DNA of 46,395 bases from Gracilaria domingensis. Taxonomy: Eukaryota > Rhodophyta > Florideophyceae > Gracilariales > Gracilariaceae. The stretch spans positions 1 through 46,395 of the forward strand of contig VCMS01000100.1 of the NCBI GenBank assembly GCA_022539475.1, in the 5' to 3' direction. The notes under the pieces were generated by a model. That model did not search any database, was not told the origin of the DNA, and saw nothing but the letters and a program-made list of their open reading frames with translations. Shown here piece by piece: positions 26,701-46,395 of this stretch. The stretch's first letter is position 1. Each line of letters opens with the position of its first letter. The position numbers were made by a program, and so were the translations under genes.

Positions 26701-26815
26701 AACCGAACTCAGGGCTGCGTCTTAGATAGATTTTGAGGAGCTGTAAGGCTTTGAAAATCCCCATTATGTAGGTATCAAAGTCCGTCTATAGCAAGTTGCA
26801 GGATCGATCTTAGTT
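23795..26815. repeat. ~158-bp tandem satellite block
   Basis: A unit containing AAAACCGTACTCA, then 'gctgtgtcttagatagattttagggagctgtaccgctttgaaaaccccca' in pieces, then 'gtccgtctatagcaagtt' and 'gattcaagtcattatgttactga', recurs throughout. The AAAACCGTACTCA-type anchor occurs near 24,117, 24,277, 25,388, 25,912, 26,067, 26,224, 26,380, 26,540 and 26,697, giving a spacing of 155-160 bp. The block is interrupted at 24,371-25,170 (LTR-like repeat) and about 25,556-25,755 (unrelated AT-rich DNA). No gene is present. Confidence 0.85.
24371..25170 (+). mobile_element. Dispersed LTR-like repeat, copy 2, inserted in the satellite
   Basis: Same orientation and order as 3697-4525. Satellite sequence is split cleanly around it: '...catactccgtttgttc' before and 'atctatagcaagagca...' after, both parts of one satellite unit. 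A TATA-like GTATAAG lies ~80 bp from its left end. It is ~0.8 kb with no ORF of note, so a solo LTR or non-autonomous element. Confidence 0.65.
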
Positions 26816-28926: not shown

Positions 28927-29160
28927 CTTCAGAAAAAGAAGTAGTAGTTGGATCGAAGTTTCCGCTGCGATACAGTGCAATCGAGCTAAACTGTGCTGTC
29001 CACCCCCACTGTCCAACCACACGGGCTATATCCAGCACCATGATTGTCCCTGTTTCCCTCATCCCATTTCCCGCCAAAACATCTACTGTACACCTCCGCA
29101 CCTTCCACTATTTAAGCGCCATCTCTCTGTCCCCTCTTCACATAGTCCCCACCCACCTCG

Positions 29161-29241
29161 CCTCGACCGGCGATATTTTTCTCTTCCACCATAACCCCAC
29201 TCGATGGTTATAGCAAAACAGGAAGATATTGCCAGTGGAGG
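29161..29241. repeat. Imperfect hairpin 1 of 3
   Basis: The 5' arm begins CCTCGACCGGCGATATTT and the 3' arm ends GATATTGCCAGTGGAGG; the loop is near CCCACTCGAT. About 81 nt in total, with scattered mismatches. Confidence 0.65.
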
Positions 29242-29287
29242 CAAGCTAGGGACTAGTGATTGTACTTAGAGTTGCTCACCCTCTGTC

Positions 29288-29361
29288 TCGACTGGGGGCA
29301 TGTTCTTCTTCCGTCACATCCTTTGTGGGTTGTGACAAAAAAAGAATATGTCACCACTCGA
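29288..29361. repeat. Imperfect hairpin 2 of 3
   Basis: The 5' arm runs TCGACTGGGGGCATGTTCTT and ends GTCACATCC; the 3' arm runs GGTTGTGAC to GTCACCACTCGA. About 74 nt; homologous in sequence to hairpin 3. Confidence 0.65.
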
Positions 29362-29414
29362 CACCGGATGGGTAACAATGGTAGCACGTAGAGTAGTTCA
29401 TCCTCCCTCTCAGC

Positions 29415-29492
29415 GTCCACTGGGGATATATTTATGTTCTCTCACATCCTTTCCCGGTTGTGATACAAGAGAAATACATCTCCAATGGAGAC
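29415..29492. repeat. Imperfect hairpin 3 of 3
   Basis: The 5' arm runs GTCCACTGGGGATATATT to CTCACATCC; the 3' arm runs GGTTGTGAT to ATCTCCAATGGAGAC. About 78 nt. The linkers between units also match (GTAGCACGTAGAGTAGTTCA type), so the three hairpins are a tandem array of ~130-bp units. Confidence 0.65.
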
Positions 29493-29559
29493 GGAAAATA
29501 TAGTCGTGATAACACGTAAAGGTAACAATGTAATAAACAATAAATTTATGCTACTATCT

Positions 29560-29880
29560 CTAACCAACCTTTCGAAAACCAGCTATGACATGAGCTGGGT
29601 TACTCGAGCCAAAGATGGGAGATCCTGCAACTGAAATGTTTGCACCGGCCTTCACTACTGCTTTCACAGTACTCAGTCCAATACCCCCATCCACCTGTAT
29701 CCCTATTCTTGGGTACAACTCCCTTGCATGTCGCACCTTGTCAAGAACACCCTCCATAAACGCCTGTCCTCCAAACCCTGGCTCCACCGTCATCAACAAT
29801 AACATGTCTACAACTCCTTCCTTCATAAGTGCTTCTACGACCTTTATAGACGTATTCGGGCGCAATCCAACTCCATTCTT
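29560..29880 (-). pseudogene. rpe: Ribulose-phosphate 3-epimerase, C-terminal part only
   Basis: The encoded ~106 aa match the second half of ribulose-5-phosphate 3-epimerase, the TIM-barrel enzyme that interconverts ribulose-5-P and xylulose-5-P in the Calvin and pentose-phosphate cycles. Family motifs are clear: LRPNTS, the MTVEPGFGGQAF strand-loop, QVDGGIG (catalytic Asp and phosphate-binding Gly) and GANISVAGSPIFG (phosphate loop). The N-terminal half, with the metal-binding His and first catalytic Asp, is missing: a TAA precedes the codons KNGVG, and no matching upstream exon is visible on the minus strand up to 30,250. It is either a truncated pseudogene or the last exon of a split gene (an AG acceptor-like 'taaaag' sits at the boundary). 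Confidence 0.75.
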
Positions 29881-30277
29881 TTAATTATGGCAATCCGAGT
29901 GAAGCTATAAAACCCGTTCACCTCATTTATGAAGCCAAAATGGCTCCTTTCATCCTGTATTCAAGCTCCCCGTAACTCGTACTTTACAATTACTTTACAA
30001 CTCAGGTTCGAAATCAGTTTCATTCATTGCACACTTTCTACTCTTCCACCTACCTTTCATAAAACATCATCACACTTTGTGGCTTGTCGTCTCATACAAG
30101 CCCTATCATTCATTCAGTACAATCACATATCATACATTTCGCTCACTTTCACAAAGTGAACCATGTTCCCGTTCTGCGCTTCCCAACCGTTTGTACTTAC
30201 GTATCACTCTTTACCCCAGCAGTTCTCCGCCCCATCTTCCCTTTTTATCGTCACACAAAAACAATCGAACACTTGCA

Positions 30278-31186
30278 ATGAACTCCCAGTCTGACATGCC
30301 TCCGACTCCGCCTCCGAGTCCCAGATACTCTGACGTCCCTCAGGCCTCATTTCCCGCCCGAAGGACTCGGGCCGTTATTGTTGGAAGGGGGCGTATAGGT
30401 ACCATGCTGGCGAACGAAGAAGATACGGTCATTTCCGCACACGAATTCTGCAGCATGGCTGCTACCTCTCATCTTTCTGATGTACCGTTACTAGTTTGTG
30501 GAAGAACGAACACCCTGGAGACCGTAATTCAGGCTTGCCCTTATTCGCTCAGAGAGAATCTCGTTTTCTTCCAGAATGGAGACATCATACCATTGCTTTC
30601 GAAGCTCGGTGTGGACAAATGTTCAAAAGTTGTCCTATACGTTGGTGTCCCCTCAAGAAACGCAGCTCCGCAGGATGGTGTCACTCCTCAAAGTCCGGAT
30701 GGTCTCACTGTCGCAACAGGAAAGTGGGCCTCCAACGTTGCAGACAGGTTTAGGTCTATGGGTCTCACTTGCGGGGTTGTCGACGAAGACACATTTCTCG
30801 TAAGCTATTATGAGAAGCTCGTGTGGCTATCAGCGTTCAACATCGTCGGGGCCTCAAGAGGTCTCATTCCTATGGACGTAGTCGCTACGGAGTGCAGTAC
30901 GGTTGTGCTCACAATAATGAAAGAGCTGTTGAAGATAGTTTCGCTTAAGACAGGTACTACTTTCAACCTGGAAGAGACCGTTGGGCGACTTCTTGCATAT
31001 GGGAAAACTCTCGTTGGCTTCCCTACTTCTTTCTCCGACTTTCAGTTTAGGAACGCGTACTTCTACGACTTTTCCCGCCAAGAAAGAAACATTGTAGGCG
31101 GTGACCCCGCTCCTTTTCATACAAACTACGTCAACGTTGTTAAGGAAAAGTTATCCCCCTCCCCATTCCCCCAGCTTTCAGGTTAG
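30278..31186 (+). CDS. Ketopantoate-reductase-like NADPH dehydrogenase
   Basis: 302 aa from the ATG at 30,278, after a ~30-residue Pro/Ser-rich leader. A Rossmann nucleotide-binding motif (AVIVGRGRIGTML, residues 32-44) opens the domain. The middle has VFFQNGD (residues 97-102), the place of the conserved Asn loop of PanE/ApbA enzymes. The C-terminal domain begins with the family's helix (YYEKLVWLSAFNIVGA): the conserved Lys (K180) and the later Asn (N188) are present, but Leu184 replaces another usually conserved Asn. PanE reduces ketopantoate to pantoate in pantothenate/CoA synthesis; this copy is divergent, so its substrate may differ. The ORF is open and apparently complete. Confidence 0.7.
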   Translation: MNSQSDMPPTPPPSPRYSDVPQASFPARRTRAVIVGRGRIGTMLANEEDTVISAHEFCSMAATSHLSDVPLLVCGRTNTLETVIQACPYSLRENLVFFQNGDIIPLLSKLGVDKCSKVVLYVGVPSRNAAPQDGVTPQSPDGLTVATGKWASNVADRFRSMGLTCGVVDEDTFLVSYYEKLVWLSAFNIVGASRGLIPMDVVATECSTVVLTIMKELLKIVSLKTGTTFNLEETVGRLLAYGKTLVGFPTSFSDFQFRNAYFYDFSRQERNIVGGDPAPFHTNYVNVVKEKLSPSPFPQLSG

Positions 31187-31807
31187 AACACATGACTTTT
31201 CGGTGTTGTAAACCTTTTAGAGATAGTTAAACATAAAAGTTACTTTATCGAAATGACCTGTTCCTATTACATTACTTATATTGTTCGTCCTTCTGTGGTT
31301 CAAATATGCCCCTTTAAATCCTACATCCCTTATCACTAATACTTCGCTAAGATTTTGCTAGATAGAAAATGGTCATTCCATATCATTAAAGTGCACGATA
31401 CTAGTAACGAAACAAGTACAAAAATTGTGATATTTCTGAAGAACTAAGCGTTTGCATTACTTGGGGCACCCGTATAAAGTAAGGTAAACCTTTTATGGGT
31501 TTCAACCCGTAATGGAGGTTGTTTTACTCTTCTTGATTTCTAAGCTCATGTTAAAGATATTTACAGTTTTCTTTACCCACTTGAACCCGTACATATAATT
31601 TATGACTAAATCATCCTTTCTTTACTTCAAATCGATGCAAAAACTTCTCCTCCTAGTAACGTTTTAAAACAGTACTACAATACCCGTATATGGTCGTTCT
31701 TAGACTCTTTGTATACTACGAAACACCTTGTGAACATCAATCACATCCTTCTCATTCGTATACCCATACCCATTTGCAAAACGAACCCTTTCGAAAGCTT
31801 TCAAAAC
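31187..31807. other. AT-rich intergenic region
   Basis: It lies between two plus-strand genes. No repeat or RNA gene was recognised; it probably holds the 3' UTR of the first gene and the promoter of the second. Confidence 0.4.
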
Positions 31808-32701
31808 ATGTATAACTCAGAAGTTAGAGCCCAAGAAGTAACTCCTCAGCAGCTGGCTAACGAAATATTCGAAAATGGCTACGCCGTGATTAGTGATGTT
31901 GACGGTACTCTGAAAAGAGCTGGGGAGAACATTCCTGCCGAAACAGTCAAATGCATGAAGTACATCAACGCACGCGTTGGTTTCGGAATTGCTACTGGGC
32001 GAGATATAGAGGATGCCGAGAGTTTCATGGAGCACCTGGGTGGCTACACTTTTGGCATCTCTGGAAACCAAGGCGCACGGGTGAGATTATCCAATGGTAC
32101 CGAAATTGATCAGGACCTTGACAGGGAAGGTTACGAAAGATGTGCAGCCGAACTTGAGAGACTTGCACTCTCCTTAAATGAATCGCACGGACTTCACGAA
32201 GAGCGTCAACAAGCAGTGGTGAGCACTAGAAAAGACAGTGGACTCCCTAACTTCACGTACAATGGACTGTCGAAGTGGAAAACAGAAGTTAACTCCGGTA
32301 TTTCAAAAGTGTTGACATCCTTTCCGAACCTGGTTGCGTACCCTCAAGATGAAAACTGTGACATAGGGGACATTCGTTTCACGAAAAACAGTGGGGCGCT
32401 AGCCTTGGTTGAAAACGACCCCCAGTCACATTTAATCGTTGCTTTCGGGAATGCTTCCAATGATGGCCCTCTATATGAAATGGCATTTAGGGGTTCTAGT
32501 GACTATAGTATAGGGTTAAGGGATTCAAGAGATTTAGGATGTTGGAGATTAAGGGGAAATGGAGATTTAGGATTTAGGAAGGGGGTGGGGGATTTAAGGG
32601 TTAAGGGAGGGGGGGTGGGGGGGCGACGGTTTGGAGGATTTAGAGGATTTAGGGTGGAAGAAGGATTTAGAGGATTTAGAGGATTTAGAGGATTGAGATG
32701 A
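31808..32701 (+). CDS. HAD-superfamily sugar phosphatase, 3' end replaced by minisatellite
   Basis: From the ATG at 31,808 the ORF encodes 297 aa. HAD motif I is DVDGTL (nucleophile Asp and acid/base Asp), motif II GIATGR, and motif IV FGNASNDGPLYEMA, with GN in place of the common GD. The cap region with GNQGARV between them recalls the trehalose-6-phosphate phosphatase/Cof-type group; mannosylglycerate-phosphate phosphatase is another possibility and would suit a red alga. From about residue 240 (after SDYSIGL) the frame enters G-rich repeat DNA and reads GFRGFRGF, so the native C-terminal ~30-40 residues are missing or replaced. The core catalytic set is otherwise intact. Confidence 0.65.
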   Translation: MYNSEVRAQEVTPQQLANEIFENGYAVISDVDGTLKRAGENIPAETVKCMKYINARVGFGIATGRDIEDAESFMEHLGGYTFGISGNQGARVRLSNGTEIDQDLDREGYERCAAELERLALSLNESHGLHEERQQAVVSTRKDSGLPNFTYNGLSKWKTEVNSGISKVLTSFPNLVAYPQDENCDIGDIRFTKNSGALALVENDPQSHLIVAFGNASNDGPLYEMAFRGSSDYSIGLRDSRDLGCWRLRGNGDLGFRKGVGDLRVKGGGVGGRRFGGFRGFRVEEGFRGFRGFRGLR

Positions 32702-32975
32702 TTTAGAGGATTTAGAGGGTTTAGAAGATTCAGTGGATTCCGTGGATTCAGAGGTTTCAGAGGTTTCAGAGGATTCAGGGGATTCAGTGGATTCAGTAGA
32801 TTCAGTGGATTCAGAGGATTCAGTGGATTCAGAGGATTTAGAGGATTCAGTGGATTTAGAGAATTCAGTTGCTGCAGGAGATTTAGGGGATTTAGAGGAT
32901 TCACTGGACTCAGGAGATTCAGTAGATTCAGAGGATTCAGAGGATTCAAGGGATTTCGAGATTTAAGGAAATTTG
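32500..32975 (+). repeat. GATTYAGNG minisatellite, left copy
   Basis: Imperfect tandem units of 9-12 bp (GATTTAGAG, GATTCAGTG, GATTCAGAG), preceded by G-runs at 32,578-32,625 that could form G-quadruplexes. The left edge carries 'ctatagtatagggttaaggg', also found at the start of the right copy (about 42,420). Confidence 0.8.
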
Positions 32976-33009
32976 AATGTTTAAGGGGTTAAGTATACTG
33001 TAACGGATT

Positions 33010-33745
33010 TGGACAAAATGCAGGACAGCGTCCGGCATTCTTTCAAGAATGGGCTTCTTCGCTGGTAGTGTAAGCGGTGTTAGGATGCTGCACAGTGCGC
33101 TGCATTTTTGTACCCGATCGGCGGAAGACTGACAGTGTAAGCCGGGATAGAATGCAGGACAGCGTCCTGCATTCTGCTGGCCGGTTGGATAGACTGACAG
33201 TGTAAGTCGGGGTGCAGGAATGCAGGACAGCGTCCTGCATTCTGCTCGCCGGTTGGATGCACTGACAGTGTAAGCCGGGGTGCAGAATGCAGGACAGCGT
33301 CCTGCATTCAGCTGGCCGGTTGGATACACTGACAGTGTAAGCCGGTGCAGAATGCAGGACAGCGTCCTGCATTCTGCTCGCCGGTTGGATACACTGACAG
33401 TGTAAACCGGTGCAGAATGCAGGACAGCGTCCTGCATTCTGCTCGCCGGTTGGATACACTGACAGTGTAAGCCGGGGTGCAGAATGCAGGACAGCGTCCT
33501 GCATTCTGCTCGCCGGTTGGATACACTGACAGTGTAAGCCGGTGCAGAATGCAGGACAGCGTCCTGCATTCTGCTCGCCGGTTGGATACACTGACAGTGT
33601 AAGCCGGGGTGCAGAATGCAGGACAGCGTCCTGCATTCTGCTGGCCGGTTGGATACACTGACAGTGTAAGCCGGTGCAGAATGCAGGACAGCGTCCTGCA
33701 TTTCTGCTCGCCCTTTGGATACACTGACAGTGTAAGCCGGGGCAG
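33010..33745. repeat. Hairpin array, 65-67-bp period
   Basis: Ten copies of a unit with two palindromes: AGAATGCAGGAC-AGC-GTCCTGCATTCT-type (12-bp arms, 3-nt loop) and TACACTG-A-CAGTGTA (7-bp arms). CAGGAC starts at about 33,021, 33,155, 33,223, 33,290, 33,355, 33,420, 33,487, 33,552, 33,619 and 33,684; spacing alternates between 65 and 67-68. Between the palindromes is 'gctcgccggttgga'. Three minus-strand reading frames stay open through it, which is an artefact of repetition. Confidence 0.85.
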
Positions 33746-33959
33746 CATGACAGTGTGGTGCCGCTCCCAAACACGTGGGAGTTGGTGGAGACGTGTATGA
33801 CGGGCCAGGAACGTGTATGACATGGCAATTGGAACACGTGGCGGGGTCGGTCGTTATACCAATTTTGGGGCTGGAAGCGTCCTGGGAAACAGAATTTGTA
33901 CCCATTTGGGGGTCGAAAGCGTCCTGGATATAGGGTTTATTTTAGGATTAAATATGTTG

Positions 33960-34270
33960 GAGTGGCGATGATTGGCCAAGCGAAATCCGCTGGTGTAGCA
34001 CAGTTGGTAACGGCCATACTGGCTGTGCTACACCATCGGAGATCGTGGTTCGAATCCCACCCATGCACACTGCGCTGCGAGCTCTGGCCAAGCACGCTGC
34101 GCAGTATGCATGGGGGGGGCTCATCACTCCCCACATGGACGCTGCGCCGCTGGCCTTGGTCACGCCTGCTGCTCAGTGTGCATGATATCAATCTCCCTTT
34201 TGTCCCCCTTCCCTCCTTTTCCCTTTTCTTTTCTTTTTTCTCTCTGTTTCTTTTTCTTTTCAAAAGTTGT
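33960..34270 (+). mobile_element. tRNA-derived SINE, copy 1
   Basis: It has an RNA polymerase III A box (TAGCACAGTTGG, 33,996-34,007) and a perfect B box (GGTTCGAATCC, 34,047-34,057). A 12-bp stem (33,992-34,003 with 34,023-34,034) surrounds the A box. The body 'tgcacactgcgctgc...ctggcc' and a C/T-rich tail follow. Copy 2 is at 43,880-44,170. Confidence 0.75.
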
Positions 34271-35570
34271 TTACTTTCAAGTATGGGAGAGATTCAACGA
34301 TCGTTGCGCTTACATTATTCCTATCCTGCGTCCTTACGAAAGGGAAAGCGTTTTTTTTTTGTTTTGGGGGGCAGGCGGTGTGAAATGGAGATTAGATTGA
34401 GGGTGAGGTGAGAAAGAATGTAAAAGAAAGAACAATCCCTTCTCTCGCGGTGTGAGATCTCTACTCCAATTGGAGGCGAAGGGGAAGCTACGGGGTGGTT
34501 GTTTAAGCCGATTGAAGTGGCTGGAAGTAGGTAAACATGTGAACGTTACCATTGTGGCCTGGGCATGCTTCTCTTCTAGTTTGTACACACACACACACAT
34601 ATATATTAGGTTATACAGTGACATACAAGGGTGCTGCGCTGCAACGCACGCGGGCGATGAATTATTGTCCCCCGATTGCGGGGAAATGTGTGTACATGAC
34701 GTATGGGGATTACATTATTGAGAAGGGAGTGCCCTAGACAGTCGCCTGTATGCAATAGTGTTAATTGTGTAAGTAGTGTGTGGCAAGTGGTGTTTGCCTT
34801 GGAGTCAAGCGGCAACCAAATAAAATAAAATAAAATATGAGAGCACAAATTTCAAGAGAAGGAGAGAATGCCACGGGATTGGGGGATACAGTAAATAGTG
34901 TGGGCATGGCAAAAGACTGTAAGGGCCAAGCAAGTCACTGTGACGTATGCTTCACAGAAGTGATTGTGACGCCAAACAGCAATGGTGTCATGTTGATGTG
35001 GCCCGAGGAAAAAAATATAAACATACAATTACAATTATTATATGATACAAGAGGAAAGCACTGTAAAGCCTAGTGTGTGCGGTATGTATGGGAAGGGGCT
35101 TCCGGCACTTTTGTTGACGCCAAACTGCAACGACGCAGTCACGTCACGTCGCGTCATGGCATGTTTAATACGCGGAGGAGAAAGGAGAAAAGCTGTGTTG
35201 GAAAGCATGCGTAAGCATGGGAGCAAGTGTAAGTAATATAGGATATGGTATGAGTCAAGCGTGTTTTGTTTGAAACGGAGTTAGGTTGGTTAAAACGAAT
35301 AACAGAGGGTTAGGGCTAGGTGAAAGATGCGGCATGATCACACTGTATGTTTCGAGTGAAAAAGATACGGGGGATTGGTTGGTTGCGTGTATGAGATCAA
35401 ACGCTGAACACGATCATAGTACGGCTATAGGTTGCGTGTGTATGAGATGAAACGCTGAGCGGTGCAAATTCCGGTTCTTGCTATCGATAACAACAGAGCG
35501 GTGTGGTGTGGTGGGCCTTTGTGCGGTGCGGACACGTACGCGAAAGAAAGTTATTACTCATAGATGTGGT
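34271..35570. other. Left flank of the D/E element; no confident gene
   Basis: It contains a CA/TA microsatellite (34,585-34,607), an AATAAAATAAAATAAAAT tract near 34,820, and short ORFs (34,837-35,073; 35,042-35,236) without recognisable domains. Two copies of GGTTGCGTGTATGAGAT followed by AAACGCTGA lie at about 35,381 and 35,430, ~49 bp apart, upstream of gene D. Confidence 0.4.
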
Positions 35571-35575
35571 AGCCA

Positions 35576-35584
35576 GTATAAGAA
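35576..35584 (+). promoter_or_regulatory. TATA-like box of recombinase gene D
   Basis: GTATAAGAAG lies ~200 bp upstream of the ATG at 35,776, and the leader (35,690-35,770) is strongly pyrimidine-rich. Confidence 0.4.
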
Positions 35585-35775
35585 GGGGATCAAAAGTCGT
35601 GCGTGAATCCAGTTTCCTCTCGTTACGCAGCGACGAATCGTACAGGAGTTGGCGCATCATCATTGACGCATTCCAACACTTTGGCTTTTTCAGTCATACC
35701 GCTGTTGCTTGTTGCTTTTCCTCTCTTTTTCTCGTCGTGTTGCACCTTTTTCCCTGTTTTCCTCACTGCGCGACA

Positions 35776-38553
35776 ATGAGTGACCATATCGTCAACTTTC
35801 TTCTGGGGGAGGCCCAGTCCTCACCGCCGCGAATCTCTGATGTCATTGCGGCCAACAAGAACCCCACGCGGGGTGCAGAAGTTGGGAGGAAGAAACGTAT
35901 TGATCCGCGTGGAAATGCTCGCACCAGTCGCGTAGAGGTACGTGTTCATGGCAGGTGCGGAAACGGCCGCCGTGGCGGGGATACAGGTCCGAGCGGTGAG
36001 CTTGTTGCTGACACCATCAGGGGGTCTGAGGATGAGATAGTGCCAGCGAAAGATCGCAGCGAAGAGACAACTCCGTATACGAGTATCCACCCTTGGAATA
36101 TTACCGGAATGTTTGGCGAGTCGGACGACGAAGTCGATGGGGCGGCTTCCGACAGCACGCCGCCGCCCTCCTTCCCGGTGAGGAGAACGTTGCAATTTGC
36201 GCATGGTATCAATGTCTCGCCAGCAGGCGCGCTCAAGCGAAGCACGGGTGGCGGTAGCGGATCTGTGCGCAATCACAACCGCAAGGACATTTCCGCGGCT
36301 GAGGCCTGTGAGAGGAATCGTCACCGGGTTGAGAATAGAGGAAGACGAGGGGATTATCGAGCTGAGGTTGACGAACATGAGTTGGGGAGAGTTGGATTGG
36401 ATGGAGTGGTTGGAGATGGCGGGGACAGCGCTGGAGGAGTTTTGGGCAGCAACGGAGGGCCCAACGCTAATGTGTCGTCTAGCATCGGCGTCGGCGCTGG
36501 CGCTGGCACTGGCGCTGGCGCAGTAGTAGCAGCAGCAGCATCAGCAGCAGCAGCTGCAGCAGAAGTTGCGGCGGAAGTAGTGCCAGAAGGAGACGAAGCG
36601 GTCGATGCAGTTGGCGAAGCTGATCCTCCTGTTATCGACTTGGAGGCAATGCTGAATGATCAAGAAAAGGAGCATAGCGCCATCCACAACGCTCTGTACG
36701 AACGAAGGGAGGACATTTACTCTGGTCGATTTCGCTCCACATCGGGTCGGAAGAGGCGCCGAAACGGGTCTTGTAAGCTTACTGCAGAGCAGAGGCGGCT
36801 TCGACGTGAGAAGGAACGCAAGGCGGAGCTTGCAAGAAAGTCGCCGAAAGAGCTCTGGAACGAAATGTTGAGTGATCAGCTCCTCCGTTGTCCTGACTAC
36901 TTCACAAGCCGGAACGCGCTGCTGAAGGATAAGGAGAATATGGCCGCGAAGGGAAAGATTGTGTATCCCGGTTTGAAGTTGATCGCCGAGAACTGCCAGG
37001 ATTTGAAAGAGATTTATCTTATTCGGTACAAAACGAAGCAGCTTCTGCAGGCACGGGGTTCAACCGGAAGCTTTGATGTGTTCCGCTCCATTGTGGGCCA
37101 GTTCATGCGATGGGCCATTGCGAGTGGGGCGTTGAAGAAGAACGAAGGTTGGAAGCCGATGGCTCTGTTCAAGTTGATGTCCAATGAGAAGCTTGTGAGG
37201 ATATTCGTGAACTACTTCATCCGCGCGGCCTCCTTCTCAACGGTTGCCGGGAAGTGCAACGCTTTGCGTACGTTATGTAAGTATGCTGCACTGCGCATGG
37301 TCATCCCGGAGGAGAAGAACCGCGTTTTACGTGTGGAAATGATGTTGAACACGACCTTCAATGCTGCGAAGAGCCGAGCGCGAGAGCAGTATCGCGCAAA
37401 TCAGAGCGCGGATGATCGTATTCTGAAGCAGACGATCGTCACGAAGAAGCATCTTGAGCTCGGTATTCGAACAGCGAAAGCGAAACTCGAAGATATCCTT
37501 GAAGTGTTTAGGGAGACGGAAGGGAAGGAATCGAGGAAGCAAGCTTTGTCTGAATTCGCTGCAACGAAAGGATTGCTTGACAAGTGGTGTGTGAACTTTG
37601 TCGGACTGATCGCGCTCACTGGCGGCGGCCAACGGCCGCAAGCGTACGCTAGGCTGCAGTGCCCAAGCCGTCAGTCACTGAAGGATTTGTGGTCTGCAGA
37701 GATCCGAACTCCGAAAGGGATGTTCGAGATGAAGACGTTTCGGGAGAAGACGGCGAGGGCGCTGGACGTGCCGAACGTCAACTTTCCGAAGTTTATCCTG
37801 CCATTTGTTGCGTTCCATGTTGAAATCGTTCGACCGATAGTGATGAAGCGGAGGAAGATCCCAATGTCGCAAGAGTTTAAGCGCAACCGCCCGTTGCTGT
37901 TTCATACGCGAACCGGCTTGTATCTGACATCTTCGCATATCAGTCGCTCGATCAAGACTTTTATGCGCGGCATTGATTCCAGTTTGAAGTCCGTGACGGC
38001 CATGACTCTTCGCACGAGCTTCGCGACGGTCATGCTGCACGACTATCGCAACGGTAAGTTCACAAGGAAAGGAAAGAAATTGGAGGAGGACAAGTTTTTG
38101 GACCTCATGGCGAAGCAGATGAATACTTCGGTGGAGCAGCTACGAACGACATACATGTCCTGTCACAGTCAGGACTTTGTAGAAATCACAGCCCTGTTGA
38201 CGCGACACTTTTGCAGCCTGCTGGGGGAGGAGAGCGATGACGAAGATGACCTCAACGAGGAGTACGACGAGGGCAGTGGCGCGAGTAGTTGTAGAGATGA
38301 AGATGATGAGGAAGGCCGCGACTCTGCAGAGTACTCGGAAGACGACGACGAAGAGGTGTATAATGGAATGGCATTATTCCAGGACGAGGTGGAAGAGGAG
38401 GAGGTTGGAGAGGGAACCCATGAAGGACATGGTGGTCGCGGCGGCGGCGGCGGTCGCGATGCAGTGTGTGAAGGGGAAGAATTCGAAGAAGACAATGAGG
38501 AAGAAGACGAAGTGCAGCCGGTTCGCCGTCGCCGTCGCAGAAGAAAGAACTGA
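35776..38553 (+). CDS. Large tyrosine recombinase D, apparently intact
   Basis: 925 aa from the ATG at 35,776 (MSDHIVNFLLGEAQ); the open frame upstream lacks a better start. Residues 1-350 are disordered, with Gly/Ala tracts (GAGAGTGAGA, polyAla near 245-270) and a basic patch (SGRKRRRNGS). Residues ~355-520 are the shared N-terminal recombinase domain (AENCQDLKEIYLIRY, VGQFMRWAIAS, GWKPMALFK). The catalytic domain shows R620 (GGGQRPQ), K658 (FREKTAR), R746 (MTLRTSFATVM) and Y793 (RTTYM). Box II starts with Met743 in place of His, and Lys780 stands where copy A has His415. The C-terminal ~110 residues are very acidic and end in an Arg run (RRRRRRKN). It converges on gene E, 175 bp between stops. 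It probably mobilises the element. Confidence 0.85.
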   Translation: MSDHIVNFLLGEAQSSPPRISDVIAANKNPTRGAEVGRKKRIDPRGNARTSRVEVRVHGRCGNGRRGGDTGPSGELVADTIRGSEDEIVPAKDRSEETTPYTSIHPWNITGMFGESDDEVDGAASDSTPPPSFPVRRTLQFAHGINVSPAGALKRSTGGGSGSVRNHNRKDISAAEACERNRHRVENRGRRGDYRAEVDEHELGRVGLDGVVGDGGDSAGGVLGSNGGPNANVSSSIGVGAGAGTGAGAVVAAAASAAAAAAEVAAEVVPEGDEAVDAVGEADPPVIDLEAMLNDQEKEHSAIHNALYERREDIYSGRFRSTSGRKRRRNGSCKLTAEQRRLRREKERKAELARKSPKELWNEMLSDQLLRCPDYFTSRNALLKDKENMAAKGKIVYPGLKLIAENCQDLKEIYLIRYKTKQLLQARGSTGSFDVFRSIVGQFMRWAIASGALKKNEGWKPMALFKLMSNEKLVRIFVNYFIRAASFSTVAGKCNALRTLCKYAALRMVIPEEKNRVLRVEMMLNTTFNAAKSRAREQYRANQSADDRILKQTIVTKKHLELGIRTAKAKLEDILEVFRETEGKESRKQALSEFAATKGLLDKWCVNFVGLIALTGGGQRPQAYARLQCPSRQSLKDLWSAEIRTPKGMFEMKTFREKTARALDVPNVNFPKFILPFVAFHVEIVRPIVMKRRKIPMSQEFKRNRPLLFHTRTGLYLTSSHISRSIKTFMRGIDSSLKSVTAMTLRTSFATVMLHDYRNGKFTRKGKKLEEDKFLDLMAKQMNTSVEQLRTTYMSCHSQDFVEITALLTRHFCSLLGEESDDEDDLNEEYDEGSGASSCRDEDDEEGRDSAEYSEDDDEEVYNGMALFQDEVEEEEVGEGTHEGHGGRGGGGGRDAVCEGEEFEEDNEEEDEVQPVRRRRRRRKN

Positions 38554-38659
38554 ACAAGCATGTAAAAATCATAATTAGAAAGGTAGAAGTAGAGGTGACT
38601 GACAACCTGTGTCACACGCCCCATACACAACTAAGTAAAAAAACTGTTGTATGATTCCG

Positions 38660-38688
38660 TGTGTGTGTGTGTTTGTGTGTGTGTGTGA
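38660..38688. repeat. GT microsatellite between D and E
   Basis: (GT)n with a single TTT interruption, lying in the 175-bp gap between the two convergent stop codons. Confidence 0.9.
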
Positions 38689-38728
38689 GAACGTACAGAC
38701 TGGGTGAGAGCAACTCGTACCTCTCTCT

Positions 38729-41596
38729 CTAACGATTCTTCTGTCTCATCCTCTTAATTAAACTCTGCATTCTACGGAAGCATTCGTGCCATTCGGCCTT
38801 CAAATCTCCATCGTCCTCTCGTTGAACCAAAGAGTAACCTTCTTCAACCAAAGCCACGACCGCAACGCCTTCCTTTTTCTCCATGTCCTTTGACGTTGCT
38901 TGAGATAGATCCAAAGGCCTCGGTGCTGACGTGTTTGACTCGGGACGCCGCTGAACCGCCTGGGTCTTCACGGGCTGCGTTGAAGTCTGTGTGGAGGAGG
39001 GCTCACTAAGAGATCTGAATTTCGAGAGAATCATCGGCGTCATCTTGGTCATAGCGTCCTGTATAGCGTTGTGCGAACCAATTCCGTTCATCTCTGTTTT
39101 GATATCGCGGTCATCAAGGATCTTTGACGTCAGGTTGTGAATGTCCACCGTATCCGATGTGCTGTGCTCCATGACGATAAGTCCTTGGACCACTCCGACG
39201 ATCGCGTTACGAAGCACAGTGCAGGGGGTAACTAACTGGGTTTCGATCTCGTTCCCGTTCTGTTCGTTCTTCTGTTCGTTCTGCGCACTCTGGGTATTCT
39301 GTTTCCGGTTTGGCGGTAGTGTGTCTTCAGCGTCCTTCTTAGGGTGTGTCGCTTCAGAAAGTGGGGGAGTGCGTCCATTCGTAGCGCCAGAAGTTGATGG
39401 AGGTTGGCGCGTTGGTGCTGATTCCATGAAATCATTCGGACTCGTTGTCTTCAGCGACTTGGTGGTGCTCGGGAACTGAATTGGAAGCTTCGGAAGATCT
39501 GCGGCAGCCACCGTTTCTTCCCCTGACTCGGGGTTGGTCGCCTCCTCGTTGGTGTCATCGCCGTCCCAGAGGAATGGTGGTGACTGTACGTAAACATTTG
39601 GTTTCCGCTTGTATTTTTTCCGTGTCGTGCGAAGGCGCCGTAGAACTTGCGCCTTGTAAGATTGAAAAGTAAACATCTTGCGCATAACCGCCATGTGATG
39701 ATCGATAGCTTGGTAATCACGAGTCGGAAATAGGCTGTAGTCCTTCGAAAGCAGAGAAATGTAGTAGGAGACATAGAATCCACACTCCATACCCGTTTGG
39801 AGGTTCTTCTTGAGGGGATGAAAATGAATTGCACTCTTCAATACATCCATGGAAGGAGCGTCATCTCCAGGATAGGCCGCTTGGAGGTACTGCAGTACAT
39901 TGATACTAAAACCGCTGTGCGGGGAACCTGTCTGCATACTGTCCAGCCAGAACACACAAGCCGTGTCTTCCAAACGGAGTCCATTACTGTTCTTTTCGAG
40001 GTCTTCAAGGAGATTGGGAAAGTTTACCAACACCGCCAAACTCCAATGACCAGCCCCCACAATCGGCAGAAAGGTTAACTTTGATTGCCAGCAGCGATGA
40101 TGCAGTAGATACGTTTTCGATGTGCGCGACTTTGTATCTTTTCGAAGTGAAATCAGCGGCTCCTCGCCTTCCGTCAAAGTCCCCTTGAACCACGGCGAAA
40201 TAATTAGTGATTCGGGAACGAAAACGTCTTCCATCGAACGCGAGGACCAATTGCTGAGATAGGCCGAAGTGAAGTGGATAGAGGTATCCGTGCCATTTTG
40301 GAAGTTGAGGATCGGCTGGAAGTCCTTGTCATACAAGATGAACGCTTGGTTATAAAGTCCCCCCCTCACCATTAGGGAAATAGCCTTCGATTCATCCTTT
40401 CGATGTCGCGCCAGCGCGTCGTGCACCATCTGAGCCAAATCGAACTCGTGCCCATTAACACCTTGTTCCGTCGTCATGTAAACCTCTTCTCGAACTTTTC
40501 CAACAATTCGCTGTCTCAACATCAGATCCGCAAAAGCCTCCGCCTCAGGAGGGTCACGCGAGCTTTCCATCTCCTTCACTTCCGCCTCTACTTTCGTGTC
40601 CAGCTCCTCAAGAAGAGCTCGCGATCCAGGCTGCGCCCAATCCAAGTACTGCTCCCATCCCAAGGGGGGGCGTTTGAATTGTTTAGAGTTTGAAATGCTT
40701 CGCGATCTCTTGCGGCCTCGACGTCGGCCATCAACTTCGCTCCCAGTAGTGTCAGTGAACTTGTAGTCGCAGTGCAAACCGCCCTTGCGCCGATTGATCC
40801 AAAGGTCAACCCTGTCGCGTATCTTCTCCACCTTCCATGTCTTCACAACGTTTAGCGTTCGTCGAGGGAACGTCGCGATACCGGCGCACTCTAGCTCACA
40901 AAGATATTCCACCACCCCCGCCTGGAGCAGCCTCCTCGCTCCGGATATATAGCCCTGGCATGTTGACTCCTTTGGGGGAGACATGAACTCAATAGCATAT
41001 TTACTATTCTCCCCAGATTCCTCCTTCAGTGAATCATACAGAGCCATCAGCTTCGTTTGCGTCATAGCCGGCATGCGTTTAGGACGTTTACCGTCGGCCA
41101 CGTGCTTCTGTTCCTCGCACCAATTCCAGTACTCCATGAGCCGCTTGAATGACAGAACTTGCTCCATAAGACTGAAGGGTTCAGGCCTCGGTTCCGTGGC
41201 CTCCAGATGGTGGGATATTAGCGCGTCATGCGTCAGAACCGAAACCGGTCGTCCAAACTGCGTAAGTCCATCCAGGTTCAAAACCTGGTAAGGAAGAAGT
41301 AGAATTTGCATGATATGTGCAGCCGTCAATATCCGGTGACCTCCACCCACGACTACCAGACGCCCCTGTGGAAAGTTGACATCGGATTTCACAACGAGGA
41401 GAGGTTGGTGGCGACGGAAGCGGTGGGGTTCCCCGATCTCATGACAAACACGACGGAAGTTGGCCTTTGAGGAATGTCGCCCAATAAAAGGACCGAGAAA
41501 TAAGTCAGTGTGACCGTATAGCACAGGACCAATGCGTGCCATTTGAATCCGCTCCATAATCTGAGAGGACAACGTTGGCTTCTTGACTTTGATCAT
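38729..41596 (-). CDS. ParB-like / Ulp1-type cysteine protease fusion E
   Basis: 955 aa from the ATG at 41,594-41,596, no internal stop. Residues ~45-110 resemble a ParB/sulfiredoxin-type nuclease-ATPase fold: NFRRVCHEIGEP, then LLVVKSDVNF, then VVVGGGHRILTAAH (the GxxR/HR-AA motif) and LPYQVLNLDG. A helix like the one after ParB cores follows (SLMEQVLSFKRLMEYW). Residues ~170-270 are helical and basic, perhaps DNA-binding. Residues ~440-640 are a C48 (Ulp1/SENP) deSUMOylase-like protease: H517 (GAGHWSLAVLV), D552 (FWLDSM) and C605 (MECGFYVSYY), preceded by Gln600 or Asn599 as oxyanion-hole residue; the Gln is one residue closer to Cys than usual. The C terminus (~690-955) is disordered. It probably belongs to the same mobile element as D; Ulp1 domains are known in several eukaryotic DNA transposons. 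Confidence 0.8.
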   Translation of the reverse strand: MIKVKKPTLSSQIMERIQMARIGPVLYGHTDLFLGPFIGRHSSKANFRRVCHEIGEPHRFRRHQPLLVVKSDVNFPQGRLVVVGGGHRILTAAHIMQILLLPYQVLNLDGLTQFGRPVSVLTHDALISHHLEATEPRPEPFSLMEQVLSFKRLMEYWNWCEEQKHVADGKRPKRMPAMTQTKLMALYDSLKEESGENSKYAIEFMSPPKESTCQGYISGARRLLQAGVVEYLCELECAGIATFPRRTLNVVKTWKVEKIRDRVDLWINRRKGGLHCDYKFTDTTGSEVDGRRRGRKRSRSISNSKQFKRPPLGWEQYLDWAQPGSRALLEELDTKVEAEVKEMESSRDPPEAEAFADLMLRQRIVGKVREEVYMTTEQGVNGHEFDLAQMVHDALARHRKDESKAISLMVRGGLYNQAFILYDKDFQPILNFQNGTDTSIHFTSAYLSNWSSRSMEDVFVPESLIISPWFKGTLTEGEEPLISLRKDTKSRTSKTYLLHHRCWQSKLTFLPIVGAGHWSLAVLVNFPNLLEDLEKNSNGLRLEDTACVFWLDSMQTGSPHSGFSINVLQYLQAAYPGDDAPSMDVLKSAIHFHPLKKNLQTGMECGFYVSYYISLLSKDYSLFPTRDYQAIDHHMAVMRKMFTFQSYKAQVLRRLRTTRKKYKRKPNVYVQSPPFLWDGDDTNEEATNPESGEETVAAADLPKLPIQFPSTTKSLKTTSPNDFMESAPTRQPPSTSGATNGRTPPLSEATHPKKDAEDTLPPNRKQNTQSAQNEQKNEQNGNEIETQLVTPCTVLRNAIVGVVQGLIVMEHSTSDTVDIHNLTSKILDDRDIKTEMNGIGSHNAIQDAMTKMTPMILSKFRSLSEPSSTQTSTQPVKTQAVQRRPESNTSAPRPLDLSQATSKDMEKKEGVAVVALVEEGYSLVQREDDGDLKAEWHECFRRMQSLIKRMRQKNR

Positions 41597-41638
41597 CGTT
41601 GTAGTCCCCCCCAGTTTGTTACCAAGTTAGATATTCTC

Positions 41639-42035
41639 AGTAGTTCGGCCGACCGGAAAGCGCACGCAGAAAACCACACAAACGTTCCACGAATGTCCAC
41701 TGCAGCGACAAACCGGTTTCAAACAGCGCGCATGCAAGGAGGTACAAAGTAGTTCCGAGGAGATGGGCTGACCGCAGAGCGAACGCAGAATCTCAGACAA
41801 TCGTTGGCCAAAAGGTCCAGCGGTTTCGCGCAGCGCACGCAGTGAGTTGTTTCCAAGTAGTTAGATTGGTAGACCGCACAGCGCACGAACGATCTCCAGA
41901 CAAGCGTTCGAGAAAGGTCGACGGCAGACACTCCGTAAGTAGTTGGCATTCGAACGGGAGACGGCAGAACGCACGCAGAAACCCACACAACCGTTTCACA
42001 AATGCGAAATGCAGACACTCCGTTCTTGCGCAGCG
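41639..42035. repeat. Iteron-like repeats upstream of gene E
   Basis: Four imperfect units start AGTAGTT at about 41,640, 41,748, 41,858 and 41,938 (spacing ~109, 110, 80). Each contains a GACCG(C/G)A-type block, then (A/G)CGCACGCAG and a 'cacacaa(a/c)cg' block. They lie between ~45 and 440 bp upstream of the start of E, so they could be promoter or binding sites. Confidence 0.6.
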
Positions 42036-42424
42036 CCCGGTTTGGTTTACCAGCGGGAGGGGTTGGAAGCGGCGAGCGATAGGCCGTGGTGCAAAATGCG
42101 GGACGCTGTGCTGCATTCTGCACTCCCGACATTGGTGAAATTTGTACAAAAAAAATTGAAAAAAATAGGGGTGGAGGCCCGAAGGGAGTTGCCTGGAACT
42201 GAAGGGGAAGTTCCGCCCCGCAGTTGTTATAATGTGGGCGGTTTAGGGTTCTTGGGCCTATACTATAGGTTAAGGGATTTTTGTGTCTAATGGAAAAGAG
42301 CGTTTTATGAGAAATTAGGTGCAAGGTCTAAGGAGAAGAAAAGGGGATTTTGGGATTTGAAAGGGGCGTTTGAGGGGGGGAAAGAATGGAGGATTAGGTG
42401 GACTTGGTGGACTTGAAGGTTCTA
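42036..42424. other. Junction region right of the D/E element
   Basis: It holds one degenerate hairpin of the CAGGAC family (42,092-42,120) and 'ctatactataggttaaggg' near 42,258. No gene. Confidence 0.4.
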
Positions 42425-42795
42425 TAGTATAGAAGGTTTAAGGGGATTTAGGGGATCAGAGGATTCAGAGGTTTCAGCTGTTTCAAAGGATTCATCGGTT
42501 TTAGAGGATTCAGAGGTTTCAGAGGTTTCAGAGGTTCCAGAGGTTTCAGAGGTTCCAGAGGTTTCAGAGGTTCCAGAGGTTGCAGAAGTTCCAGAGGATT
42601 CAGCGGTTTCAATGGATTCAGCGGTTTCAATGGATTCAGCGGTTTCAGCGGTTTCAGCGGGTTCAGCGGGTTCAACGGGTTCAGTGGGTTTAGCGGGTTC
42701 AGCGGGTTCAGTGGGTTCAGCGGGTTCAGCGGGTTCAGCGGATTCAATAGATTCAAAGGATTCAAAGGAGTTTGCTGGATCGGAGGTTTTATAAG
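42425..42795 (+). repeat. GGTTTCAGNG minisatellite, right copy
   Basis: 9-bp-based units (GGTTTCAGA, GGTTCCAGA, GGATTCAGC, GGGTTCAGC) in imperfect tandem, related to the left minisatellite at 32,500-32,975 and likewise preceded by 'ctatagtatag'. Confidence 0.8.
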
Positions 42796-42902
42796 GCTCT
42801 TCAGCCTTTTAACGGATCCAAAGGTTTCATAGTTTACCTCTCCAGATTATAAAGACAATCGTTTTGCGTATATGCACAAGTTGGTTCGAGTTCAGGTAAG
42901 GA

Positions 42903-43575
42903 CCAAAATCCAGGACGTTGTCCTGCATTTACAACAATTCGGGGTGGAATTATGGTGATGAACGATATGCATGACGCTATCCTGGAATCGAAACATTGCG
43001 AGGTCGAAATGTGAAGAGTAACAAAATGCAGGACGCTGTCCTGATTCGGAACATTCGGAGTGGTGAGTTTAGTAATGGTCAAAATCTAAGACGCCATCCT
43101 GGATTCACCACATTCCGAGGTGCAGTTTTGGTGAGAATCAAAATCCAGGACGCTGTCCTGGATTCTGTCCTGGATTGTGTCCGGGGTTCTTGCACCTGAA
43201 AACTCGGGGAGTGTCTAAATCCGGGACGCTGTCCTGGATTCCGTCCTAGAAAGGTGTATTAGCTGTATACTTGTCACTGTCGAACACGTGTATACGCCAA
43301 GTGGCAACGTGTATTTGTTGTACACCACTTTGGCAACGTGTATTATCGCTCTGCCCAGTTGAAAACATTCCGAGGTGGTAGTATGATGAGTAACAAAATG
43401 CAAGACGCCGTCCTGAATTCATTACCTTCCGTGGGAGAAGATTAATGAGGGTTGCCACCTTCCGAGGGGCAAGTATGGAGAGTGTCAAAATCCAGGCCAC
43501 TGTCCAGGATTCCAACAACATTTCAAGGCAAAAATTTGGGGGCAATCAAAATCCAGGACGCTGTCCTGGAGAATC
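42903..43575. repeat. Second hairpin array, ~60-bp unit
   Basis: Consensus AAAATCCAGGACGCTGTCCTGGATT-type hairpins (10-11-bp arms, 3-nt GCT loop) at about 42,905, 42,967, 43,023, 43,081, 43,141, 43,217, 43,395, 43,486 and 43,548. They are separated by 'acattccgaggtg' plus 'tttggtgag'-type linkers. The hairpin core is that of the 33-kb array but the linker is different. Confidence 0.75.
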
Positions 43576-43879
43576 CGTCCTGGATTGGGTTGTTGGTTCT
43601 TGCATTTATTAGACAAGTTGGAATTGGAGCAATGCCGCAGACGGATAATGAAAGCGTCAAATCTGGAAAGGTGTATGAACTGTGTACTTGTCTATGTTGG
43701 CCACGTGTATGTGACAGTGGCCACGTGTGTTTGTTGTATACCACGATGGCAACGTGTATTATCTGGAAGTGGTTTATATACCAAGTTTCCCGTAAATTGT
43801 CCTAGATTCTAAAACGTCGAACAGTTTTAGGGTAAAATCGTCCTGGAAAAGGAATAAGGAATTGATATAAAAAGAACGG
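43576..43879. other. Gene-free region
   Basis: It contains imperfect direct repeats of 'ggccacgtgtatgtgacagtgg' pieces ('cacgtgtat', 'caacgtgtattat') that are also present near 43,285-43,345. No gene was recognised. Confidence 0.4.
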
Positions 43880-44170
43880 GGTGCCGCTGATTGGCCAAGC
43901 GAAATTCGCTGGAGCAGCACAGTTGGTAACGGCCATGCTGGCTGTGCTGCTCCGCCGGAGATCGTGGGTTCGAATCTTTCCGTGCACACTGCGTTGCATA
44001 TCCTGGCCCAATATGCTGCGCAGTGTGGACGAGAACGATGAAACCTGTGCGTGGACACCGGACCTTCCATACCTGCCCTGCTTGCTGGGCATTTTGTATT
44101 AAGATTCCTTCTCTCTCACCTCCATTTCTTCCCCCCTTTTTTCTTTTTTTCCTCAACACCCTTTTTGAAG
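43880..44170 (+). mobile_element. tRNA-derived SINE, copy 2
   Basis: Matches copy 1 from 'gattggccaagcgaaat' through the C/T-rich tail. A box region CAGCACAGTTGG; B box GGTTCGAATCT (43,967-43,977, one mismatch). The 12-bp stem is kept (43,911-43,922 with 43,942-43,953) although two of its base pairs differ from copy 1. Confidence 0.75.
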
Positions 44171-44535
44171 GTTTTAGTCGTTTTTGTTGATATAAGTAGT
44201 TGTTACCTGCGCCTGTTGTTTTACTGGCTAATGCTGTGTTGTAGGCTTCGTCGAAATGTCTACCAGAAGGTACGCAGCACCCATTTTACTTTATGAAAGA
44301 GGTAATGAGAGTTAACGGCTTTGTTCATGTCAAAAGTATTTGCGGCGCAATAACGCAATCTTGAGAGGGCGAAGAGTGTCTGATTTAGGTGAAAATCAGC
44401 AGTTAAATACAGTCATTGCGCTTCAATCTAGTAAGAGATCGGCGAAGTAAAGGATGGTAATCGTTCTGTGGCAGTGGGTTTCCATGAAAATTAAAGTAAG
44501 ACTGAGCAAACGCGAGGATATACCGCGCCGTGTAC
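44171..44535. other. Intergenic, nothing recognised
   Basis: Short ORFs only; no repeat or motif stands out. Confidence 0.4.
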
Positions 44536-44870
44536 TGGGGCTGCAGGAGAATGGCTGCACACAGTAAAAGAACGTTACATAAAATATAAACATATTAGGG
44601 GCAAGTACCCGGCCACGTCATGCGGTCGTGCCGTGTAATGACGCTGCAGGAGAATGGCTGCACACAGTAAAAGAACGTTACATAAAATATAAACATGTTG
44701 GGGGCAAGTACCCGGCCACGCCATGCGGTCGTGTCCACGTCATGCGGTCGTGCCGTGTAATGAGGCTGCAGGAGAATGGCTGCACACAGTAAAATAACGT
44801 TACATAAATTATAAACATAATGGAAGCAAGTACCCGGCACGTCATGCGGTCTTGGAGGGGAGACTGATCA
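44536..44870. repeat. ~103-bp tandem repeat, three copies
   Basis: CTGCAGGAGAATGGCTGCAC begins at 44,541, 44,644 and 44,766. Units continue with 'gtaaaagaacgttacataaa' and 'ggcaagtacccggccacg'. The second unit is longer by an internal ~19-bp duplication of 'cgtcatgcggtcgtg'. Confidence 0.85.
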
Positions 44871-44889
44871 CGGGAATGGATTGTTATCA

Positions 44890-46395
44890 ATGTTAAAAAT
44901 GAAATGGAAGGAAGTACCAGACGTCATCATGTCCCCGCGGAAGGATGGACTGAAACAGTGTGGAATGTTACGAATAGAATTTTACGGTTGATCATAATAT
45001 GTTCACATCCGTGTGGAATGAAGTATAATACAGTGACCAGTTATGTAATACTGTGTGCGTTGCGGCGAAGCCAAACTGCCGAGAATGATTTACAGAATAG
45101 AGCCTATATCCATCATTTCGCGGGATATTATTTCTATAATGGTGTCGTGAATTCGGGCTGTAAGTCAGCAAATGGTTGATGAGATTCTCTCCTCGGGAAG
45201 CATGTATTGGATTAGCTAATGTCATGCCATGCCGATGTCCTACAGTTTTGCGATGGAAGATTGGAAATCCTCGTGAACAGAGTTGGTTCTGTAATTGATG
45301 TGAAGTGCTGCATAAAATGCACGATCTGATGTATAAGATGAGTCAAGCGTGCCAATTGAGCGTCATGGGTACAATAAGCCTTACCTGTATAATCAATTTT
45401 AGAAGGTCGTCATACAAGGCACAATGAATGTAGCATGTTAAAGGCGTTCCCATGAAACTTTTGGAAGGCCATTTTGTGAGTAGTAGGCGTAAGCGCGGCC
45501 GTAAAATAATACAATCAAGTTTAGGGTAAAAAGGGAATCATCGTTGCATTGCGGAAAGCGATTATATATATGACCATAACCAAAACGATAACGCATCGGA
45601 AGCGTACTGTCATGGGCTCCCGATCGAAATTTGTGGTGCGCTCGGTGCCTTTTCATTATCCCAACAGTACAGTTACAGAGAGAAGCTATATTATACTATG
45701 TGAAGTTATGGGGAAGTCGAATTGCGGGGGGCAAATTACAGCACAGAACATTATGTTACGAAGATCATGTGGAGAGATTCATTTTCTATAATGATGCCGT
45801 AAACTTGGTGTGTAAGTCAGCAAACGTGTTTTGGTATTCTTTCTTTGAGAATCATGGATTGGAGCTGCTGATATCATGACATGACGATGTTGTGCACTTG
45901 GGCGACGGACGTTTCGAGTCATCGCGGAGAGTGGTAGCCCTCACAATTGGTGTGAACTGTTTCAAAAAGAGTCCAATCTGATGTATAAGATGATACGTCT
46001 ATAATGAGTGTCACGTGCATATTGAGCGTCATGCGTACAATGAGGCTCACTTGTATAATGGGCGTGGAAATGGCTTCATACATTTCAAAATAAATGGAGC
46101 ATGTTAGAAGTGTTCCCAATCTTTAGGAATGCTTCTTGTGAAGAGTAGGCGTATACGGGGCCCTAATATAATGCATTGATGGGGAATGATGTAACGGCGT
46201 GACATTGGGGAAAGCGATTATACATATGACCATAACCAAATAGGTAACGCATCGGAACCAAACTGTCATGTGTTGATCGATGAGGTGTGCTCGACGCGTT
46301 ATGACAAACATCTCCGAATGCACTTGTCCGACGGACGTTTGGAGTCATCGCGGCGAGTGGTAACCTTCACAATTGATGTGAACTGGCTTCATAAT
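44890..46395. repeat. ~650-bp tandem repeat running to the window end
   Basis: Anchors recur: ATCTGATGTATAAGATGA at about 45,324 and 45,977 (653 bp apart), and GCGATTATAYATATGACCAT at about 45,560 and 46,216 (656 bp apart). The last unit appears shortened, because 'gatgtgaactg' near 46,376 follows its partner at 45,951 by only ~425 bp. Small minus-strand ORFs are repeated with it and are not supported as genes. Confidence 0.7.

Follow-up and report, generated by a model that had tools for sequence, protein, structure and literature searches.

In oomycetes, CryptonF-2_PS and its relatives carry a gene for a C48 (Ulp1) peptidase besides that for the tyrosine recombinase (YR), as do some of the CryptonS elements (Kojima and Jurka 2011, PMC3212892, in the portions available), so that the pairing of the two is already known; the first-pass annotation of the locus described here, which knew of no YR element with a ParB-like-Ulp1 partner, is not supported in this respect. 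Ulp1 domains are also found in Mutator-like and Ginger1 transposons, where they have been suggested to act in transposition (PMC2836005, in the sections available). From red algae, no element of this kind appeared in the titles and abstract openings consulted on Crypton or YR transposons and red algae. Repbase held 1181 Chondrus crispus entries in 2015 and may include relatives (PMC4455052, available part).

Here, we describe a family of such elements in the red alga Gracilaria domingensis, starting from a stretch of 46,395 nucleotides at the beginning of contig C100 (the window). The two genes are convergently paired and spread in many copies, some nearly identical, with shared left ends and with conserved catalytic residues in both proteins. 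We consider it probable that the window contains a copy of a Crypton-like family of large YR DNA transposons that would integrate as circles at a short GGGGT core. Like CryptonF-2_PS and some CryptonS elements of oomycetes, as far as the accessible descriptions go, these elements combine a YR and a C48 peptidase in one eukaryotic DNA element and have a short candidate core at an end; unlike them, they have a third conserved gene and a red-algal host. The majority of CryptonS members have TATGG termini and CryptonF has a GCR1_C domain (same descriptions), whereas the Gracilaria left ends start with GGGGTT or a close variant and the Gracilaria YR has no GCR1_C match. The catalytic set of Cryptons is R-H-R-Y, whereas the Gracilaria YR lacks the HxxR histidine. 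Cryptons have a YR and no reverse transcriptase; the Gracilaria elements likewise have a YR, and Pfam showed no reverse transcriptase in their YR, protease and third protein. Short direct repeats (4–6 bp) flank Cryptons at both ends; in Gracilaria, a candidate left core, GGGGT, is shared with the empty target at two of four sites. In size, type C (at least 14.7 kb) and type B (at least 19 kb) of Gracilaria compare with the approximately 3.2 kb of Crypton6 from Phytophthora infestans (PMC3522703, in part). The elements are best called Crypton-like rather than established Cryptons, being set apart by descriptions of Cryptons and not by their sequences. Ginger1 shares the Ulp1 protease domain, as do Mutator-like transposons, and differs in having an integrase-type DDE transposase and terminal inverted repeats where the Gracilaria element has a YR (PMC2836005, same sections).

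The Starships of fungi, as portrayed in the excerpts available, are also large YR-driven DNA elements with further genes; unlike these, the Gracilaria elements keep a convergent Ulp1-type partner and a third gene. The captain YR family of Starships is DUF3435, and neither the Gracilaria YR nor its relatives gave such a match in Pfam.

The window and its two convergent genes

As read from the sequence, the window holds a type A copy with its start at about 32486, into which a second element, of type B, breaks at 42241. The features are as follows:

27559–32485, no strand: flanking high-copy host repeat, outside the element, whose left end lies in it; the repeat holds a HAD-hydrolase ORF (31709–32701)
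32486–32513, plus strand: left terminus of the type A element, TTTA and then, from 32490, GGGGTTCTAGTGACTATAGTATAG; the same end occurs at C251:29833(-) with a different flank
32521–33054, no strand: degenerate 9-bp minisatellite in the left arm (repeat search; TRF 32662–32948)
33021–33749, no strand: 65-bp tandem array (33128–33749) and a preceding unit, with 10 CAGGAC-NNN-GTCCTG palindromes (9 exact, 1 with one mismatch)
33959–34108, no strand: 150-bp stretch, 79% identical to 43878–44027 of the second element (repeat search)
35776–38553, plus strand: tyrosine recombinase (YR) gene, 925 aa, with R620, K658, R746 and Y793
38729–41596, minus strand: gene of Ulp1/C48-protease type, 955 aa, with H517, D552, Q600 and C605; convergent with the YR gene
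41597–42240, no strand: element sequence upstream of the protease gene, ending where the second element starts; gene 3 is absent here
42241–46395, plus strand: left arm of the type B element, starting GTTT-AGGGTTCTTGGGCCTATACTATAGG and cut off by an assembly gap (C100:46396–47696)
42911–43568, no strand: six palindromes of the CAGGAC-NNN-GTCCTG type within the second element's left arm, four of them exact and two with a single mismatch

Two of these features deserve a separate comment. The HAD-hydrolase ORF matches Hydrolase_3 (E 4.9e-11), and the repeat that contains it, the right edge of which recurs at no fewer than 38 other places, is possibly another mobile element with a hydrolase gene. 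The 150-bp stretch shared by the two left arms was considered as tRNA-like and rejected, since ARAGORN found no tRNA and Rfam gave no match at gathering score.

The two long, intact, convergent ORFs, 175 bp apart, that were first noted at this locus are confirmed. The YR frame is open from 35503 to 38553(+), and the likely Met start at 35776 yields the 925-aa protein (P0003); the longest open frame has 1020 codons, whereas 200 mononucleotide shuffles of this region never gave more than 264. The assignment of R620, K658, R746 and Y793 proved right, all four being invariant in a 9-sequence alignment. They are all retained in 9 of the 12 genomic YR copies compared; the frame of one copy (C333:29202–31343) stops ahead of the last two catalytic residues, and two further copies (C100:67646–68656 and C100:14310–15245) have lost some of them. 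The position of the HxxR histidine is occupied by Met in nine YR copies with an uninterrupted catalytic region and by Lys in the distant relative P0014. H681 is invariant, but does not lie at this position. The recombinase has no match in Pfam and weak XerD and XerA matches around R746 in NCBIfam, and two distant YR relatives matched Phage_integrase (Pfam) below the cut-off. An AlphaFold model (mean pLDDT 57.5, with 387 of 925 residues at 70 or above) is good in the core only; in Foldseek, the best hit was Cre (E 0.0058, probability 1.00), followed by XerH (E 0.19, probability 0.87), and nothing reached E ≤ 0.001. The Cre and XerH matches and the catalytic residues together identify P0003 as a tyrosine recombinase. 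The YR protein and its relatives gave no GCR1_C match (Pfam, E up to 1), and neither a reverse transcriptase nor a DDE match was obtained when the YR, the protease protein and the product of gene 3 were scanned against Pfam. Relatives of the YR elsewhere comprise eight proteins, five of which (P0010–P0014) are 29–50% identical.

Distant YR genes or fragments, approximately 25–35% identical to P0003, also occur in the window at 10999–12450 and 14310–15920 (both -) and at 16763–18085 and 20084–20356 (both +). They sit in and around an inverted duplication (12046–14268 and 18087–20359, 94%) and have no Ulp1-type match beside them.

The second predicted protein carries an Ulp1/C48 peptidase domain, as indicated by the catalytic H-D-(Q)-C residues and a profile match. 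The triad proposed initially (H517, D552 and C605) is correct and, with Q600, identical in all seven Ulp1-type proteins compared, which represent types A, B and C. Residues 420–680 scanned alone pass the Pfam cut-off for Peptidase_C48 (22.4 bits vs 20.7), and the whole protein falls just under it (19.1 bits). The full-length relatives P0005 and P0006, whose database names are papain-like cysteine peptidases, gave no C48 match in Pfam. The AlphaFold model is unusable (mean pLDDT 42.9).

The same protein had been read as a fusion with a ParB/sulfiredoxin-like segment, which proved unsupported. Its N-terminal 150 residues are conserved and include a GGH(R) motif, the Arg of which is replaced by Gly in two of seven proteins. 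ParB or sulfiredoxin was sought without a match in Pfam, NCBIfam, PHROGs and a PDB profile search; a tblastn search of plasmids gave four unconvincing hits (E 1–9), and Foldseek with the model, the fold of which is too poorly modelled (residues 1–141 below pLDDT 50), found nothing at E ≤ 0.001. After these profile, plasmid and structure searches, the ParB-like domain was dropped and the short GGH(R) motif alone remains. A partition function, for which this motif alone would speak, is likewise unsupported.

Copies, ends and insertion sites

Searches of the 77.9 Mb assembly returned at least 49 matches to the YR protein (45 of 156 candidates scored) and 34 to the protease protein, which we grouped into 17 loci. 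At 13 of these 17 loci, down to approximately 30% protease identity, a convergent YR homologue adjoins the protease gene (C100 twice, C251, C2, C405 three times, C454, C333 twice, C211, C12 and C184), although the 13 are not all independent insertions, two of the C405 loci being an inverted duplication, and the C184 pair includes a 131-residue protease fragment with three stops. C66, C301 and two loci on C275 have no listed YR neighbor. Many distant genomic YR genes (below approximately 40% identity) had no protease partner in these searches, and pairing therefore seems to mark one clade. Because 13 of the 17 protease loci have a convergent YR, we regard the pair as a mobile unit. Within the G. 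domingensis genome, homologues of the two genes thus do co-occur elsewhere, adjacent and convergent as the first-pass annotation supposed, and the genes are multi-copy and lie in repeats, which excludes single copies at syntenic positions. Its proposal that the two genes form one element stands in that they travel together; the pair is not the whole unit, which also includes a third gene and long arms shared between copies.

The copies on C100 and C251 are 99.8% identical over 9.1 kb, and those on C333 and C211 99.7% over 8.9 kb, in both cases at different places. Both genes are open in the window copy, C405:18–25 kb, C211 and C333:45–53 kb. The protease frame is broken in C251, and either the YR or the protease in C12, C454, C405:72–78 kb and the second C100 copy. 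In the latter, an insert of approximately 4.7 kb, perhaps an LTR retrotransposon, splits the copy and has a direct repeat of 271 bp on either side (98.9%; C100:62803–63073 and 67269–67539). On C405, a type B element is doubled as an inverted duplication (12748–31800 and 65836–46778, 99.9–100% in the stretches compared), which is either a real palindrome or an assembly artefact.

Beyond the protease gene and divergent from it lies gene 3, which encodes a 648-aa protein that has no match in Pfam. It has 20 matches in the genome. In our reading, most of them adjoin a protease gene, and 13 of the 17 protease loci have gene 3, whole or as a fragment, as a neighbor: C2, C405 (three), C454, C333 (two), C211, C66, C301, C275:57–59 kb, the second C100 copy and C12, where it is a weak fragment. 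It is not found beside the window copy, C251, C184 and C275:25 kb, and no protease match adjoins the gene 3 matches on C310, C329 and C12:555 kb. At the second C100 copy (57–69 kb), positions 59796–62779 match 42240–39249 of the window at 94.5% and are followed by gene 3 at C100:57555–59036. Position 42240 was therefore rejected as the right end of the type A element. What replaces the expected gene 3 continuation in the window is the type B left end at 42241, which argues that elements nest in or abut one another. The sequence from 42246 to 46395 is 99.9% identical to C12:560011–564159 and 98.8% to C405:12749–16889, both of which lead into YR genes, and an array resembling the 9-bp minisatellite also follows this second left end (42364 on). 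On C333, two type C left ends lie 16 kb apart in the same direction.

Type B elements share at least 4.6 kb of sequence beyond gene 3, throughout the stretches tested in two C405 copies, C454 and C12 and partly in C2. Type B thus extends over at least 19 kb (C405:12748–31800); for type C the extent is at least 14.7 kb (C333:42469 to approximately 57200). On the right side of type B, the final 3 kb that were read (C405:28801–31800) contain only four ORFs, of 106–161 aa. The 161-aa ORF (L051 1009–1494, minus strand) has DNA relatives at approximately 1.3-kb spacing on C179, and also on C43. The conserved order of the unit is very likely left end, non-coding arm of tandem repeats, YR, convergent protease, divergent gene 3 and right arm.

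Ten left ends were read (type A, two; B, four; C, three; D, one). Each opens with GGGGTT or a sequence close to it and continues with the pattern nnnnnCTATAnTATA, whereas the flanks differ; in types A, B and C, the YR frame begins approximately 2.7–5.3 kb from the end. The motif is found at 17 places in the genome vs none for the reversed pattern. The type D motif (C251:35212) is on the strand opposite to the nearby YR. At C251:35212(-) and C195:160638(-), a left-end-like motif and a distant YR are approximately 1.75 kb apart and on opposite strands, which represents a different organisation.

Insertion sites were compared with uninterrupted copies of the target at four places. The type B elements at C2 and C12 landed in a repeat of approximately 970–980 bp, arrays of whose units occur on C395, C344 and C35. 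At the C2 site, the uninterrupted copy (C12:559723) reads TTTTCGGGGGTT followed by TATACTG and the insertion TTTTCGGGGGTT followed by CTTGG; at the C12 site, the uninterrupted copy (C395) reads CTTCATAGGGG followed by TGCGG and the insertion CTTCATAGGGG followed by TTCTTGG. From these comparisons, GGGGT is common to target and element. For the left-end flank in the window (32380–32640), 38 among the best 40 of 308 candidates match the flank only, up to 32485, and C100:51364–56295 (98.8% to the flank repeat), read across the junction, has no element there. The uninterrupted copy at the 32486 site is GGCA/ACCC, without GGGGT, and in the insertion GGGG is preceded by four additional bases, TTTA; at the 42241 site, the uninterrupted copy likewise is without GGGGT, and GTTT precedes the left end. 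The GGGGT core thus fits two of the four sites compared. The alignment of loci suggested at the outset has accordingly yielded shared left ends and two empty sites with the core; a right end, sought by extending types B and C and with a junction pattern (0 hits), was not found.

The 15-bp palindrome CAGGAC-NNN-GTCCTG is present 63 times in the genome vs six for a control pattern. In the stretches examined, all copies with at most one mismatch lie inside type A or B elements, mostly in the left arm and in some cases in the right arm or between the protease gene and gene 3; the type C stretches examined have none. Among the matches listed, C106 and C382 have both the palindrome and the left-end motif, and C18, C37 and C154 have single palindromes on contigs without a known element. 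The arrays in types A and B probably serve one of the proteins of the element as binding sites. Other palindromes, of 13–15 bp, lie at the point where YR and protease sequences are exchanged in type B and were not seen in A or C.

Age, constraint and exchange of gene halves

Types A, B and C have diverged to saturation, or close to it, at synonymous sites, and the arrangement is therefore old. The dN/dS ratio of the YR is approximately 0.20 both for C2 vs C405 (432 codons, dS 0.16) and for the two C333 copies (714 codons, dS 0.74), a pattern that shows the predicted YR to be under constraint. For the protease, dN/dS is uninformative, as dS is saturated between subfamilies; the ratio is 0.66 against the decayed second C100 copy and 0.37 between near-identical copies at dS 0.005. 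C2 and C405 have the close YR genes just mentioned and protease genes with saturated synonymous sites, the switch point in C2 lying approximately 100 bp past the YR gene; in the two C333 copies, the protease is again saturated. Judged by these divergences, YR and protease halves recombine between subfamilies, and the gene order stays.

Transposition and competing readings

By analogy to Cryptons and other YR elements, the recombinase would bind the conserved end (GGGTTBTnnnnnCTATAnTATA) and cut the element out as a circle. The circle would then recombine into a target that shares a few bases with it, the putative GGGGT core, which the left ends support at two of the four places compared. The Ulp1-type protein would most likely act on the recombinase, or on host proteins at the donor and target, and strip off SUMO or a SUMO-like modifier, a role suggested by its catalytic residues and by the Ulp1 proteins of other transposons (PMC2836005, as available).

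A rather unlikely alternative is that the elements form a distinct, non-Crypton superfamily of large multi-gene YR elements. It would be defined by the lack of the HxxR histidine, a core of YR, Ulp1 protease with its N-terminal domain, and gene 3, palindromes bound by that N-terminal domain in a partition- or synapsis-like manner, nesting at or near ends, and exchange of YR and protease halves.

It is improbable that the YR and Ulp1 genes belong to the host and owe their copy number to segmental duplication and the expansion of satellites rather than to transposition of their own. The inverted duplication on C405 and the copies within repeats indicate that part of the copy number is passive, but the nine left ends read from types A, B and C start at the same element sequence within different flanks, the two insertions in the 970–980-bp repeat have empty counterparts, and subfamilies in which most synonymous sites are saturated still keep the gene order.

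Even less probable is a plasmid-like element, in which the N-terminal part of the protease protein would bind the palindromes as ParB binds parS and partition an episomal circle. The palindrome enrichment, its confinement to type A and B elements in the stretches examined and the conserved N-terminal residues with their GGH(R) motif would fit this reading, but the profile and plasmid searches found no ParB or sulfiredoxin, the Arg of the motif varies, and the type C stretches examined lack the palindrome.

In some DNA viruses, adenain-type proteases act in maturation, and the large size of the element together with its integrase-type enzyme and its cysteine protease might point to a provirus or something virus-like, with capsid and polymerase genes either present or lost. 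We consider this very improbable given that viral contigs, searched with two short peptide patterns per protein and hence with limited sensitivity, contained no relative of the YR or the protease, phages no relative of the YR, the third protein has no Pfam match and the last 3 kb read of type B hold only short ORFs.

The Crypton-like transposon family that we favor extends the pairing of YR and Ulp1/C48 peptidase, reported from oomycetes, to a red alga. The retention of the pair and gene 3 across saturated subfamilies suggests that the protease is part of the movement of the element and not a passenger. With near-identical copies, empty sites and a short candidate core, the family is a tractable system for studying SUMO-type proteases in transposition, and the swapped YR and protease halves provide natural combinations that are open to comparison.
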